Positions 24,981 to 29,044 of a stretch of DNA of 64,000 nucleotides are shown piece by piece. Under the pieces are notes generated by a model. The model saw only the letters and a list, made by a program, of their open reading frames with translations, did not search any database and was not told the origin of the DNA. Every line of letters begins with the position of its first letter. Positions within the stretch are counted from its first letter, which is position 1. Position numbers and translations under genes: made by a program. Source of the stretch: Pantanalinema sp. (GTDB taxonomy: Bacteria > Cyanobacteriota > Sericytochromatia > S15B-MN24 > UBA4093); NCBI GenBank assembly GCA_036704125.1, contig DATNQI010000021.1, positions 1 through 64,000 on the forward strand. The letters run 5' to 3'.

Positions 24981-25115
24981 ATGTCGGAACAAGAAACGAA
25001 GGACACCGCCCCCGCCGCCGACGAAGGGGTGATCCCGGACGAAGCCCTCGAAGAGGTCGCCGGCGGCATCTTTGCCATCGATGCCAAGAGACGCAACAAG
25101 CTCCGCCTGCCCTAA
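24981..25115 (+). CDS. 44-residue peptide with double-glycine-type leader (putative RiPP/bacteriocin precursor)
   Basis: MSEQETKDTAPAADEGVIP, then DEALEEVAGG, then IFAIDAKRRNKLRLP. The first 29 residues are acidic and end with LEEVAGG, the form of leader cut after Gly-Gly by C39-type peptidases in class II bacteriocins, microcins and Nif11/NHLP-type RiPPs. The remaining 15-residue core is cationic (five Lys/Arg) with no Cys, Ser or Thr, so lanthionine chemistry is excluded. AAAGG ten bases before the ATG supports the start, and the gene has its own terminator. No modifying enzyme or peptidase-containing ABC transporter lies next to it. A plain small regulatory protein is the alternative. Confidence 0.7.
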   Translation: MSEQETKDTAPAADEGVIPDEALEEVAGGIFAIDAKRRNKLRLP

Positions 25116-26605: not shown

Positions 26606-26610
26606 TCAGG

Positions 26611-26648
26611 CGAATCGCCCCGCCATCACGAGATGGCGGGGCGATTCG
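26611..26648. terminator. Bidirectional hairpin terminator
   Basis: A perfect 16-bp stem (26611-26626 with 26633-26648, loop CACGAG) sits between the stop of the phosphodiester glycosidase and the stop of the convergent lipoprotein gene. It can serve both, although neither side has a long T run. Confidence 0.75.
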
Positions 26649-26662
26649 CTTCGAACGTGGCG

Positions 26663-27475
26663 CTAGTACTGCCGCTGCTGGCCGTACGCGGTCTGTTGCT
26701 GGCCGGCCATGCCCTGCTGACCCTGCTGTTGCTGGCCCTGCTGCCAGCCCTGCTGACCTTGCTGGCCCTGCTGCCAGCCCTGCTGACCTTGCTGCCCCTG
26801 CTGCCAGCCCTGCTGACCTTGCTGATAGCCCTGCTGCATCCCGGCCTGGTCGCCCATCTGGTAGCCGGTGCCGTAACCAACACCGGCACCGTAGCCGAGG
26901 CCGGCGCCGTAGTAGGGCGCGTAGCCGTACGGGTAGTAGTTTCCGCCGTAGGGGGCGTAGTACGGGGTGTAGTAGTAAGGGTACGAATAGTAGCTGTAGT
27001 ACGGGTAGTAGTAGTCCCCGTAGCTGAAGTAGGGGTAATAGTAGCCGCCGAGGTTGTAGTAGGAGAAGTTCCGTCCTCCCCACCAGCCCCGACCGCCCCA
27101 GCCACGGCCGCCCCAACCACGGCCGCCACGCCAGCCGCCGCCACCGCCACGAATGCCCCCGCGCCCGCCGCCCCGGAAGCCGCCGCCGCCGCCGCGACCG
27201 CGCTGCTGGACCGAGTAGCCACCGTTCAGCGCCTCGTCGATCGGGTTGTCCATGATCTTGTCCATCGGGATCTGGACCAGCTGATCCGCCTTCAGCCGCG
27301 CCGGCAGCTTGATCGCCTGGATCGGCGACGCGGCGGAATCAGCAGCCACCCCGAGGCCCTCCGCCGGCGCGCTGGGGGTAGTCTGATCGGGAGCGGTGGC
27401 GGGCGTCTGGGCGCAGCCCAGCGTTCCCGCCAAGAGTCCTACCGTCGTCCAAGACAAAAGCCTTGTGTTCGCCAT
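26663..27475 (-). CDS. Tyr/Gly/Arg/Gln-rich low-complexity lipoprotein (paralogue A)
   Basis: 270 residues. The N-terminus has a signal with GLLAGTLGC (probable lipid-modified Cys21), then a Pro/Ala-rich stretch, then a small folded-looking part ending NGGYSVQQRGRGGG. After it come three low-complexity blocks in order: Arg-Gly-rich with Trp (GGWRGGRGWGGRGW), Tyr-rich (YYYPYFSYGDYYYPYY and similar), and a Gln-Gly block built on three 10-residue repeats QGQQGWQQGQ. AGGAGG nine bases before ATG 27475 fixes the start. It shares order of parts with the gene at 28224. It should sit on the outer membrane surface or in the periplasm. No known family is recognised. Confidence 0.85.
   Translation of the reverse strand: MANTRLLSWTTVGLLAGTLGCAQTPATAPDQTTPSAPAEGLGVAADSAASPIQAIKLPARLKADQLVQIPMDKIMDNPIDEALNGGYSVQQRGRGGGGGFRGGGRGGIRGGGGGWRGGRGWGGRGWGGRGWWGGRNFSYYNLGGYYYPYFSYGDYYYPYYSYYSYPYYYTPYYAPYGGNYYPYGYAPYYGAGLGYGAGVGYGTGYQMGDQAGMQQGYQQGQQGWQQGQQGQQGWQQGQQGQQGWQQGQQQQGQQGMAGQQQTAYGQQRQY
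26731..26820 (-). repeat. Three tandem 30-bp repeats encoding the QGQQGWQQGQ block
   Basis: Units 26731-26760, 26761-26790 and 26791-26820 are exact 30-mers except for one base in the third. They are in frame with paralogue A (10 residues each), so copy number can change without frameshift. Confidence 0.92.
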
Positions 27476-27595
27476 GGGGGTCGACCTCCTGTCGCCAACG
27501 TGCCTCCGACCGCCTTCGCTATGGTGGTCCTCCGGCATTGCCTGCAACCATAAGCTCAATCGGTCGGAATGAAACCGGGTAATACCCCTGAAGAT

Positions 27596-27626
27596 TGCGC
27601 TCGCTTACAGGAGAGCAAGAGCAAGG
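27596..27626 (-). promoter_or_regulatory. Shared upstream element, copy 1
   Basis: 31 bases beginning TGCGCTCGCTTA on the plus strand and continuing with AGAGCAAG. The same element at 28966-28996 matches at about 27 of 31 bases with the same spacing. It lies about 120 bases before the start of paralogue A. A GTGAGATGA-like patch follows both. Probably a promoter-linked control site duplicated together with the gene. Confidence 0.6.
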
Positions 27627-27676
27627 CCCCGCTCTCGTGAGATGACGCCCTCATGGGAGGACTCCCCCCAAACGGA

Positions 27677-27707
27677 CGCCCGCTCGGCGCGATGCGCCGG
27701 GCGGGCG
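27677..27707 (-). terminator. Hairpin after lipoprotein B
   Basis: A 14-bp stem with one G-T pair and a three-base loop lies 19 bases downstream of the lipoprotein B stop (minus strand). There is no T tract, so it is a probable but unproven terminator. Confidence 0.55.
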
Positions 27708-27725
27708 AGAATGCCAAGCGAAGGT

Positions 27726-28118
27726 TTAACCGGCTGGAGCAACATGCGCCGAGGCGCTGGCCGCCTCGGCCTGCTCTCTGGGCTCCTTCTCCACTTCCGG
27801 CGAAATGGGTGGGCCGTACGCGTAAATGCCGGAGTAGGGGTAGTAGGCCCCGTAGTAGAAGGGGTACCGGTAGCCGCTCCGGAAGATCACGTCGTTGCGG
27901 AAACCCGGCGGCCCGATCTCCTGCCAGTCGCGCAGCACCTGCAGGAGCCCCCCCTCGACGCGCGAGCGCCGGCCGCTGCGCTGCTGAACCGCGAACGCGA
28001 GGGGCGCGGCTTGCCGCGGCGCGCGAACGGCCTCGGAAGCGACGGGCGGGGCCGCGACCGGCTGGACGCAGCCGAGGATGGCGAGGGCGGCGAGCGCCAA
28101 TGAGCTCTCTCGAAGCAT
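27726..28118 (-). CDS. Small Tyr-containing lipoprotein (B)
   Basis: 130 residues. A short signal ends LAALAILGC (probable lipid-modified Cys17). The middle has FAVQQRSGRRSRVEGGLLQV, comparable with the YSVQQRGRGG of paralogue A and the YAIQQRGGRG of paralogue C, but the Arg-Gly block is absent. A reduced Tyr-rich part follows (YRYPFYYGAYYPYSGIYAYG), then an acidic, Ala-rich tail. AGGAGG lies 11 bases before ATG 28118. It looks like a shortened, divergent relative between the two longer ones. Function unknown. Confidence 0.75.
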   Translation of the reverse strand: MLRESSLALAALAILGCVQPVAAPPVASEAVRAPRQAAPLAFAVQQRSGRRSRVEGGLLQVLRDWQEIGPPGFRNDVIFRSGYRYPFYYGAYYPYSGIYAYGPPISPEVEKEPREQAEAASASAHVAPAG

Positions 28119-28173
28119 GGAGCGGCAGGCCTCCTGTTCAAGCTGAAGATGCCGGCTTCCCGACAACGCGAGA

Positions 28174-28202
28174 GCAGACCCGATACGCGGTATCGGGTCT
28201 GC
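28174..28202. repeat. Perfect 13-bp inverted repeat between lipoprotein genes
   Basis: GCAGACCCGATAC (28174-28186) and its exact complement (28190-28202) flank a GCG loop. It lies between the stop of paralogue C and the start of gene B. It may end the C transcript or stabilise its 3' end; there is no T run. Confidence 0.7.
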
Positions 28203-28223
28203 AACCAGGAAATGAGCGCGCGA

Positions 28224-28835
28224 CTAGCAGCCGCCGCAACCGGCGGCGTATCCGCCGTATCCGCCGAATCCGTAAGTCGATGGGGGAAGCGAACCCGGGA
28301 TGTAGGTGCTGCGCAGGGCTTCGACGGCCAGGGCCGAGGGCAAGCCGAGCGTGGTCACGCAACTGGCGCAGGCGCCGGCGTAGGGGGTCATGACGTTGGT
28401 GTAGGCGTTGTAGGCGTAGGGATAGTAGCTGCCGCCCCACGAGTAGGGATAGTAGTTGCCACCGTCCAGGTAGTACGGGTAGTAGTAGTTGCCGAAGCCG
28501 TATCCGAGGCCGCTCCCGCCGAAGAAGAAGGCATTCCGGCCCCCGAACCGACCGCCGGTGAAGCGACCGCGGAAGCCACGACCGCCGAAACCACGGCCGC
28601 CGCCACGGATGCCGCCACCGCCGCGGATGCCGCCACCGCCACCCCGACCACCGCGCTGCTGGATCGCGTAATCCTTGTCAACGGTGACCTGGTCGGCCGG
28701 AATGACGGGCAGTTGCGTGACCTTGGAGGGCTCGGCCTGGCTCGGGGCCACCGTGTTGGGGGTAGACTGGGCACAGCCCGCGGTCGCGGCCAACAGTCCC
28801 ATCAGAACCACCGACGAGAATTTTGAAAGTCGCAT
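28224..28835 (-). CDS. Gly/Arg/Tyr-rich low-complexity lipoprotein (paralogue C)
   Basis: 203 residues. The signal ends MGLLAATAGC (probable lipid-modified Cys21), then a Pro/Ser/Thr stretch and DQVTVDKDYAIQQRGGRGGGGG. An Arg-Gly/Phe-rich part (GRGFGGRGFRGRFTGGRFGG) and a Tyr-rich part (NYYYPYYLDGGNYYPYSWGG) follow. It differs from paralogue A at the end: instead of the Gln-Gly block there is a CASC pair, a hydrophobic 25-residue stretch and a terminal GYGGYAAGCGGC. Four Cys near the end could cross-link. GGAGGA ten bases upstream supports ATG 28835. Confidence 0.83.
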   Translation of the reverse strand: MRLSKFSSVVLMGLLAATAGCAQSTPNTVAPSQAEPSKVTQLPVIPADQVTVDKDYAIQQRGGRGGGGGIRGGGGIRGGGRGFGGRGFRGRFTGGRFGGRNAFFFGGSGLGYGFGNYYYPYYLDGGNYYPYSWGGSYYPYAYNAYTNVMTPYAGACASCVTTLGLPSALAVEALRSTYIPGSLPPSTYGFGGYGGYAAGCGGC

Positions 28836-28965
28836 AGGAAGGAGGTCCTCCTTTTCCCGTACAGCGGGCGATCGCCGCGCACTCCGCGATCGCACCTCGC
28901 ACGTTCGACCTTAAGCCCCTGCGCCTCGAAAGGGACGCGTCACAATCCCTAAGGTTTGCGCAGGA

Positions 28966-28996
28966 TGCGCTCGCTTAAAGCAGAGCAAGTGCAGGG
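28966..28996 (-). promoter_or_regulatory. Shared upstream element, copy 2
   Basis: Second copy of the 31-base element, about 131 bases before the start of paralogue C, compared with about 121 bases for paralogue A. The patch GTGAGATG follows about 10 bases further. Confidence 0.6.
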
Positions 28997-29044
28997 GGTC
29001 GCCATCGTGTAAAGTGAGATGCAGCGCTTCTCGACGGCCCGAGC

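Follow-up and report, generated by a model that had tools for sequence, protein, structure and literature searches.

Genes and features of the locus

The window analysed here comprises 64,000 nucleotides of contig C21 (DATNQI010000021.1) in the 3.5-Mb, 102-contig assembly of Pantanalinema sp. (GCA_036704125.1, hereafter the own genome), a member of the Sericytochromatia. It contains three neighbouring genes, P2, P3 and P1, which are all located on the minus strand, are flanked by plus-strand genes on either side and encode predicted lipoproteins that share one order of parts (Table 1). An initial annotation had described such a lipoprotein cluster; its frames, starts, coordinates and blocks agree with ours, and predicted lipoboxes are present in P1, P2 and P3. 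P1 consists of a lipobox, a linker, the motif YSVQQR, an Arg-Gly(-Trp) stretch, a Tyr block, a Gly-Tyr run and a Gln-Gly-Trp tail. P2 has the same order of parts, with YAIQQR as its motif and Cys in its tail. P3, with little Arg-Gly and a short YRYPFYYGAYYPY Tyr piece, is probably a reduced paralogue. P1 contains up to 28 Tyr per 60 residues, which is the maximum among the 266 open reading frames (ORFs) examined.

The codon usage and third-position GC of P1, P2 and P3 fit real genes. GC contents at the first, second and third codon positions are 0.66/0.53/0.84 in P1, 0.60/0.60/0.81 in P2 and 0.73/0.55/0.86 in P3, TAC:TAT ratios are 31:3, 18:2 and 9:0, respectively, and the Tyr and Gln codons match the local preference. 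The share of GGA and GGG among Gly codons is 0.17 in P1 and 0.15 in P2, compared with 0.28 in the median ORF (44 ORFs) and 0.06 in GlnA; ribosomal protein L4, sought for the codon reference set, was not found in the own assembly. An AGGAGG Shine-Dalgarno sequence precedes the ATG of each of the three genes by 9–11 nt. That of P2 is located inside a near-palindrome, AAGGAGGACCTCCTT (28839-28853), which could hide the ribosome site; P1 has no such palindrome. No RNA elements or tRNA genes were detected in the window.

Table 1. Coordinates of the three lipoprotein genes, their parts and nearby elements within the window
Feature	Position	Strand	Remarks
P1	26663..27475	-	270-residue predicted lipoprotein; lipobox GLLAGTLG/C; third-position GC 0.84
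P1 LPA segment, short form LPARLKADQLVQIPMDKIM...	27239..27307	-	14.2 bits with a profile of 24 non-own sequences; 0/500 shuffles
P1 YSVQQR boundary motif	27200..27217	-	
P1 Arg-Gly(-Trp) stalk	27071..27199	-	Net charge ~ +10; AlphaFold pLDDT mostly 37-48
P1 Tyr-rich aromatic-Pro-aromatic (YPY) domain	26894..27070	-	0/500 shuffles; short strands predicted with low to moderate confidence
P1 Gly-Tyr and Gln-Gly-Trp tail	26666..26893	-	30-bp tandem repeat at 26729-26824
P2	28224..28835	-	203-residue predicted lipoprotein; lipobox GLLAATAG/C; Cys-containing tail; third-position GC 0.81
P2 degenerate LPA segment QLPVIPADQVTVDKD	28671..28715	-	6.0 bits; 4/500 shuffles reach the score
P2 YAIQQR boundary motif	28653..28670	-	
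P2 Arg-Gly stalk	28533..28652	-	Net charge ~ +10 over the whole stretch to the first YYPY
P2 Tyr-rich YPY domain	28362..28511	-	0/500 shuffles reach the score
P3	27726..28118	-	130-residue short predicted lipoprotein; FAVQQR 27995-27978; short Tyr piece 27878-27813
P1 upstream element	27596..27639	-	TTGCTCTCCTGTAAGCGAGCGCA at 27596-27618; AAGCGAG at -131; 44-nt repeat, 80% identical to P2 copy
P2 upstream element	28966..29009	-	TTGCTCTGCTTTAAGCGAGCGCA at 28966-28988; AAGCGAG at -141; 44-nt repeat
P1 -10-like box CTTATGGT	27547..27554	-	Consensus by eye
P2 -10-like box CTTAAGGT	28908..28915	-	Consensus by eye
Perfect 13-bp hairpin between P2 and P3	28174..28202	-	Possible terminator
Perfect 18-bp hairpin between P1 and the convergent gene	26610..26649	.	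Possible shared terminator

Two conserved parts

The stretch behind the lipobox, taken in the initial annotation for a mere small linker, holds a conserved segment with the consensus LP-x-x-[IL]-[ST]-x-x-[DQE]-A-x-x-x-[LM]-[LV] (the LPA segment), which aligns without gaps across most members of the family described below. The LPA segment is complete in many relatives and about four residues shorter in P1, P2, G002_C215 and G002_C252 (members are named by genome and contig). P1 and P2 had been said to diverge only in the tail; their tails do differ, but so does the length of their linkers.

The alignment indicates that the Tyr block is a spaced conserved domain in which residue order is kept beyond composition. 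This YPY domain measures about 45–50 residues and contains four or five aromatic-Pro-aromatic units. Five of its columns are occupied by Pro in 17-19 of 19-20 rows, and one by Tyr in 20 of 20. Phe and Trp substitute for Tyr at most of the conserved aromatic columns (Tyr share of the aromatic residues 0.44–0.93, with column 29 always Tyr), and some members contain more Phe than Tyr (9 Tyr and 12 Phe in G006_C13, 6 and 12 in G007_C248).

Both parts were compared with 500 composition-preserving shuffles per segment, using profiles trained without own-genome sequences; the segments were chosen by eye, the scores are without bias correction, and two of the genomes, G006 and G008, belong to one genus. 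The real LPA score was matched by no shuffle in P1 or in the own-genome members C63 and C70, and by 4 in P2. For the aromatic block the counts were 0 in P1, P2, C63 and C70, 15 in P3 and 68 in C96, another own-genome member. The view that P3 keeps the QQR and Tyr parts is thus borne out by its FAVQQR motif and the presence of a short Tyr piece, but P3 is only weakly assigned because 15 of 500 shuffles reach the score of that piece. Leave-one-genome-out profiles scored above all 300 shuffles in 25 of 28 members for the LPA segment and in 23 of 26 for the YPY domain. With bias correction, the aromatic profile matched 8 of the 10 genomes of one Sericytochromatia order at E ≤ 1e-3 and none of the 8 other class genomes.

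Ratios of non-synonymous to synonymous substitution rates (dN/dS) were obtained from two same-genus pairs (G006/G008). They were 0.236 and 0.288 for the whole genes, 0.153 and 0.192 for the aromatic part, and 0.404 and 0.326 for the head from lipobox to LPA segment; by this sequence measure, the aromatic part is more tightly constrained than the head. In the first pair the signal peptide reached 0.616 (few changes) and the Gly part 0.14, while a 20-codon piece of the second pair had a ratio of 0.97 from only 4 changes. The Pro tail showed a ratio of 0.285 and many indels.

The initial annotation called such composition typical of phase-separating or amyloid-forming proteins; on this reading, the proteins would be intrinsically disordered at the surface and would act solely through their composition. 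The Arg-Gly and Tyr content agrees with this, as do the exceptional Tyr density of P1 and the predicted disorder of the Gly-Arg part (see below). However, composition does not account for the conserved order of residues in the Tyr block, which is also more tightly constrained than the head, and relatives have exchanged Arg-Gly for His-Gly, Asn-rich or Pro-rich stretches. Because the Tyr block is a spaced conserved domain with Phe/Trp exchange, and not mere low complexity, a phase-separation-type composition is not its best description, and we regard an explanation by composition alone as quite improbable.

The AlphaFold model of C63 has a mean predicted local distance difference test (pLDDT) score of 58.9 and a predicted template modelling (pTM) score of 0.42. 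Its LPA region is modelled as helix-strand-helix with pLDDT values of 75–89, its Gly-Arg part has values of 34–38, and its aromatic part reaches 65–78 over residues 121–150, with five strands at 125–156. The model merely hints at two small folded units that are linked flexibly.

Distribution of the family

Relatives were collected with two profiles in turn, one of the head (lipobox to QQRGG, ten rows) and one of 19 rows, each run on all 18 available genomes of the class. Matches above E 1e-5, mostly to the signal peptide only, do not enter the genome counts; a few of them were kept by eye among the 37 members collected. At E ≤ 1e-5, the 19-row profile matched 9 of the order's 10 genomes and none of the 8 class genomes outside it; the arrangement, which the initial annotation had proposed to seek in related genomes, thus recurs. 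Because eight of the nine matching genomes had supplied rows to this profile, those found independently are G009, in round two, as well as G003 (3.4e-4), G006 (2.3e-5) and G008 (6.0e-7), in round one. The tenth genome of the order, G004, matched at 4.6e-4; the matched stretch reads QIQRGGRGFGGG and aromatic residues, but has a stop ahead of a Cys at its start.

With P2 as sole query and a limit of E ≤ 1e-3, matches came from 5 of 59 genomes, every one within the order. When P1 was the query, no relative was detected in 160 pattern stretches of named genomes, from which the own genome was perhaps excluded, and query A6 matched 3 loci among 103 stretches of named genomes. Among 386 Cyanobacteriota genomes searched at E ≤ 1e-3, 13 matched, nine of them in the order and four weakly elsewhere (G082, G115, G173 and G288; 2.8e-5 to 7.8e-4). 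The matched spans of three of these four extend into the linker, and a distant relative may be among them.

Several genomes carry more than one copy. Outside the window, the own genome has members on contigs C63, C70, C96 and C26, and a protein on C67 shares only the lipobox, SIQQ and Gly-Gln. Two members are adjacent in each of G007:C123 and G003:C62, G006:C7 carries three (the third cut at the contig end) and G006:C61 two; we infer that the ends of C7 and C61 belong to one gene. The members in G007:C123 (L062:11788-16602) and G006:C61 (L070:1085-6385) closely follow pnp and a gene for an M16 peptidase, both named by eye. A conserved neighbourhood was not found for the cluster in the window.

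The initial annotation knew of no described family with this set of parts, and indeed P1, P2 and P3 matched no Pfam or NCBIfam model above the curated cut-off. In scans of 22 aligned members and 10 listed proteins, neither the LPA segment nor the YPY domain was covered by a Pfam or NCBIfam family, the cupredoxin of C26 apart. The aromatic profile had no sequence match in the PDB. A PDB-based name for the head profile was rejected, since the best match (E 0.011) was weak and located mostly on the signal-peptide end. The open-access full text searched, which excludes subscription journals, held no description under Sericytochromatia and lipoprotein or under Tyr-/Gly-rich lipoproteins.

Unrelated lipoproteins could have been made similar by GC-rich repeats and biased composition, in which case there would be no real family. 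Low-complexity parts do raise scores, and the Tyr pieces of P3 and C96 are within reach of shuffles. The LPA segment, the YPY spacing, the order-limited distribution, the dN/dS values and the shared upstream element described below all argue against this already disfavoured explanation, which we find hardly credible.

Exchangeable stalks, tails and cargo

A boundary motif, [YRF]-x-[VITL]-Q-x-[R], is present in many members. In P1 and P2 the stretch between this motif and the aromatic domain consists of Arg-Gly; its place is taken by His-Gly in G005_C338 and G003_C62a, by an Asn-rich stretch in G005_C380, by a Pro-rich one in G006_C7b and by Gly-Trp in G007_C123a. Its net charge is mostly positive, with exceptions of 0 (G006_C13) and -6 (G006_C131). 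To judge from its sequence, the stretch resembles a loosely constrained spacer. In G008, the member on contig C205 (L112:3004-4089, minus strand) has a stalk that consists of a long GRNIGQPGFGRNIGQPGLG repeat array and an end block rich in Phe and His.

The Gln-Gly-Trp tail of P1 contains 3.2 copies of a 30-bp unit with 98% matches, which identifies it, from its repeat structure, as a young, recent tandem expansion. The different tails of P1 and P2 had been taken to hint at different assembly modes; this need not follow, because the P1 tail is such a recent expansion. These sequence comparisons single out Arg-Gly and Gln-Gly as the exchangeable parts.

The own-genome member on C26 (L046:950-1540, minus strand) has a lipobox, YQVQQRGDRDRDG... 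and a short Tyr piece, followed by an amicyanin/plastocyanin domain (TIGR02657 amicyanin, 2e-11; PF00127, 3.1e-8); the Pfam and NCBIfam scans name one member of 22, which was matched to C26 by sequence. Because an amicyanin-type domain stands behind the lipobox-YQVQQRG front of C26, the front end carries another cargo there. In the same scans, P1, P2 and P3 lack a cupredoxin domain. A relative in G003 (L021) was rejected as a cupredoxin, given its weak, 27-residue BLAST match (E 1e-4) without Pfam support.

The proteins could also be Tyr-rich substrates for oxidative cross-linking (dityrosine or 3,4-dihydroxyphenylalanine-like) into a matrix, perhaps together with copper proteins. The very high Tyr content, the copper domain in a relative of the same build and the His-Gly stretches of two relatives would suit this. 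The presence of Phe and Trp at most conserved aromatic columns, and of more Phe than Tyr in some members, speaks against a purely tyrosine-chemical role, and no oxidase was recognised by eye next to the genes in the window. We therefore give cross-linking little credence.

A shared upstream element

A 44-nt repeat precedes P1 and P2 and is not present upstream of P3. The pattern TTGCTCTNNNNTAAGCGAGCGCA, derived from P1 and P2 and allowing ≤3 mismatches, occurs at one additional site of the 3.5-Mb genome, which precedes the C67 lipoprotein gene by 152 nt. This gene (L013:2-295, minus strand) encodes a Gln-Gly lipoprotein, is cut by the contig end and adjoins a gene for a small protein that carries GMECASC, a motif of metal-binding type.

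Among 38 upstream regions, two of which are shortened by contig ends, AAGCGAG occurs at -131 to -141, on the forward strand only, in five (P1, P2, C67, G002_C215 and G002_C252), and in the other 33 on neither strand. In four of the five, a CTTA[TA]G box follows at -76 to -80. The spacings between element and box, 52 or 60–62, are about one DNA turn apart, which would fit a bound activator. The composite pattern gave 4 matches, all before the expected genes, versus 6 control matches; by itself it is no test, because it was built after its members had been seen.

Predicted location of the proteins

The lipobox rule fits 36 of the 37 members, and all 22 aligned rows keep the lipobox Cys. Asp is absent from position +2 in 36 of 36 members; in C70, for which the count had taken another Cys, the true +2 residue is Gln. 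In Escherichia coli, Asp at +2 causes retention in the inner membrane, a rule that may not hold in this class. Omp85 was found in 18 of 18 class genomes and the signal peptidase II Lsp in 16 of 18. The own genome has five Omp85 and two Lsp matches, and therefore an outer membrane and lipoprotein processing are to be expected.

With such barrels present, the proteins might instead act like RcsF, as sensors whose lipidated end and disordered stretch are threaded through a beta-barrel while the state of the envelope is reported by the C-terminal domain. The lipid anchor, the disordered stretch and the domain at the C-terminus follow one another as in RcsF (PMC9907809). The same paper states that bulkier hydrophobic residues are disfavoured in the barrel lumen, and stretches rich in Phe or Trp would suit that small polar lumen poorly. 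A sequence relation to RcsF was not shown, a genome can hold several different copies, and a signalling partner was not identified, so that we see only a slim chance of a sensor role.

Other observations

A small peptide, MSEQETKDTAPAADEGVIPDEALEEVAGG/IFAIDAKRRNKLRLP, is encoded at 24981-25115 on the plus strand; we take it to resemble a double-glycine leader precursor. On own contig C76, near 23410 (L055), an open frame of 22,691 residues was noted. As this stretch contains a long run of X, it is probably masked or N sequence and not a giant gene.

Discussion

From our analyses, we tentatively conclude that P1 and P2, with P3 as a reduced copy, belong to an undescribed, order-specific and often multi-copy lipoprotein family, found so far in one order. 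Its members would be located in the outer membrane, carry an aromatic beta domain on a flexible stalk and contribute to a surface coat. We assign this explanation as a whole a probability of roughly 0.45, with both location and function predicted.

Several results weigh against it. The QQR motif is missing from some members, the LPA segment was not found in P3, C96 or C26, and that of P2 is marginal, as four shuffles reach its score. The bias-corrected aromatic profile had no own-genome match at E ≤ 1e-3, probably because the own-genome copies are the most Tyr-rich, and P1 and P2 therefore depend on raw scores against shuffles. The AlphaFold model of P1, made with 20 rows, was poor (mean pLDDT 56.9, pTM 0.24). 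A fold search with the C63 model returned one meaningless match (E 5.5) and no resembling solved structure. No same-genus pair was found for P1 or P2, and the dN/dS values are those of relatives. The neighbouring genes point to no function.

If the coat explanation is correct, the proteins would be lipidated after Lsp processing and carried to the outer membrane by Lol-type sorting. The LPA segment and QQR motif would then lie near the membrane, and the flexible stalk would hold the YPY domain outward. YPY domains may bind one another or a surface polysaccharide, giving a coat or adhesive layer, and the front end may be a reusable mount for other cargo, such as the copper domain of C26. P1, P2 and the C67 lipoprotein may be co-induced by a regulator that binds at AAGCGAG, ~50–62 bp upstream of the -10 box.

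A bolder version of this explanation, which we think unlikely, is that YPY represents a novel aromatic-proline beta domain that assembles with itself. In combination with the LPA/QQR front, it would build a co-regulated, order-specific coat with exchangeable stalks and cargo, including blue-copper carriers. If YPY does self-assemble, the result would be a lipid-anchored coat of a new kind, whose simple repeat could be produced in E. coli.

The detection of a new protein family with two undescribed conserved parts is of importance because it concerns a little-studied branch of non-photosynthetic relatives beside the photosynthetic cyanobacteria. It also illustrates that apparent low complexity can conceal a constrained domain, and that the obvious signature, here Arg-Gly, can be the disposable part.

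In architecture, the proteins resemble RcsF of E. coli, with its lipidated Cys, disordered stretch and C-terminal domain (PMC9907809); in the present family these parts are predicted from sequence. The present proteins differ from RcsF in having Gly-Arg instead of Pro-rich stretches, an LPA segment, an aromatic domain with predicted strands and several copies per genome. The likeness to cupredoxin/amicyanin proteins (TIGR02657, PF00127) is confined to C26, whereas P1, P2 and P3 lack the domain. Sulfur globule proteins and other Gly/Tyr-rich secreted proteins of bacteria, on which a literature search gave no results, are similar in composition and are exported. They are Sec-secreted and are not known to have a lipobox or an LPA segment. 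With Gram-negative surface lipoproteins, finally, the family shares a predicted lipid anchor and diverse cargo; it differs from them as a new sequence family, the surface exposure of which is predicted.

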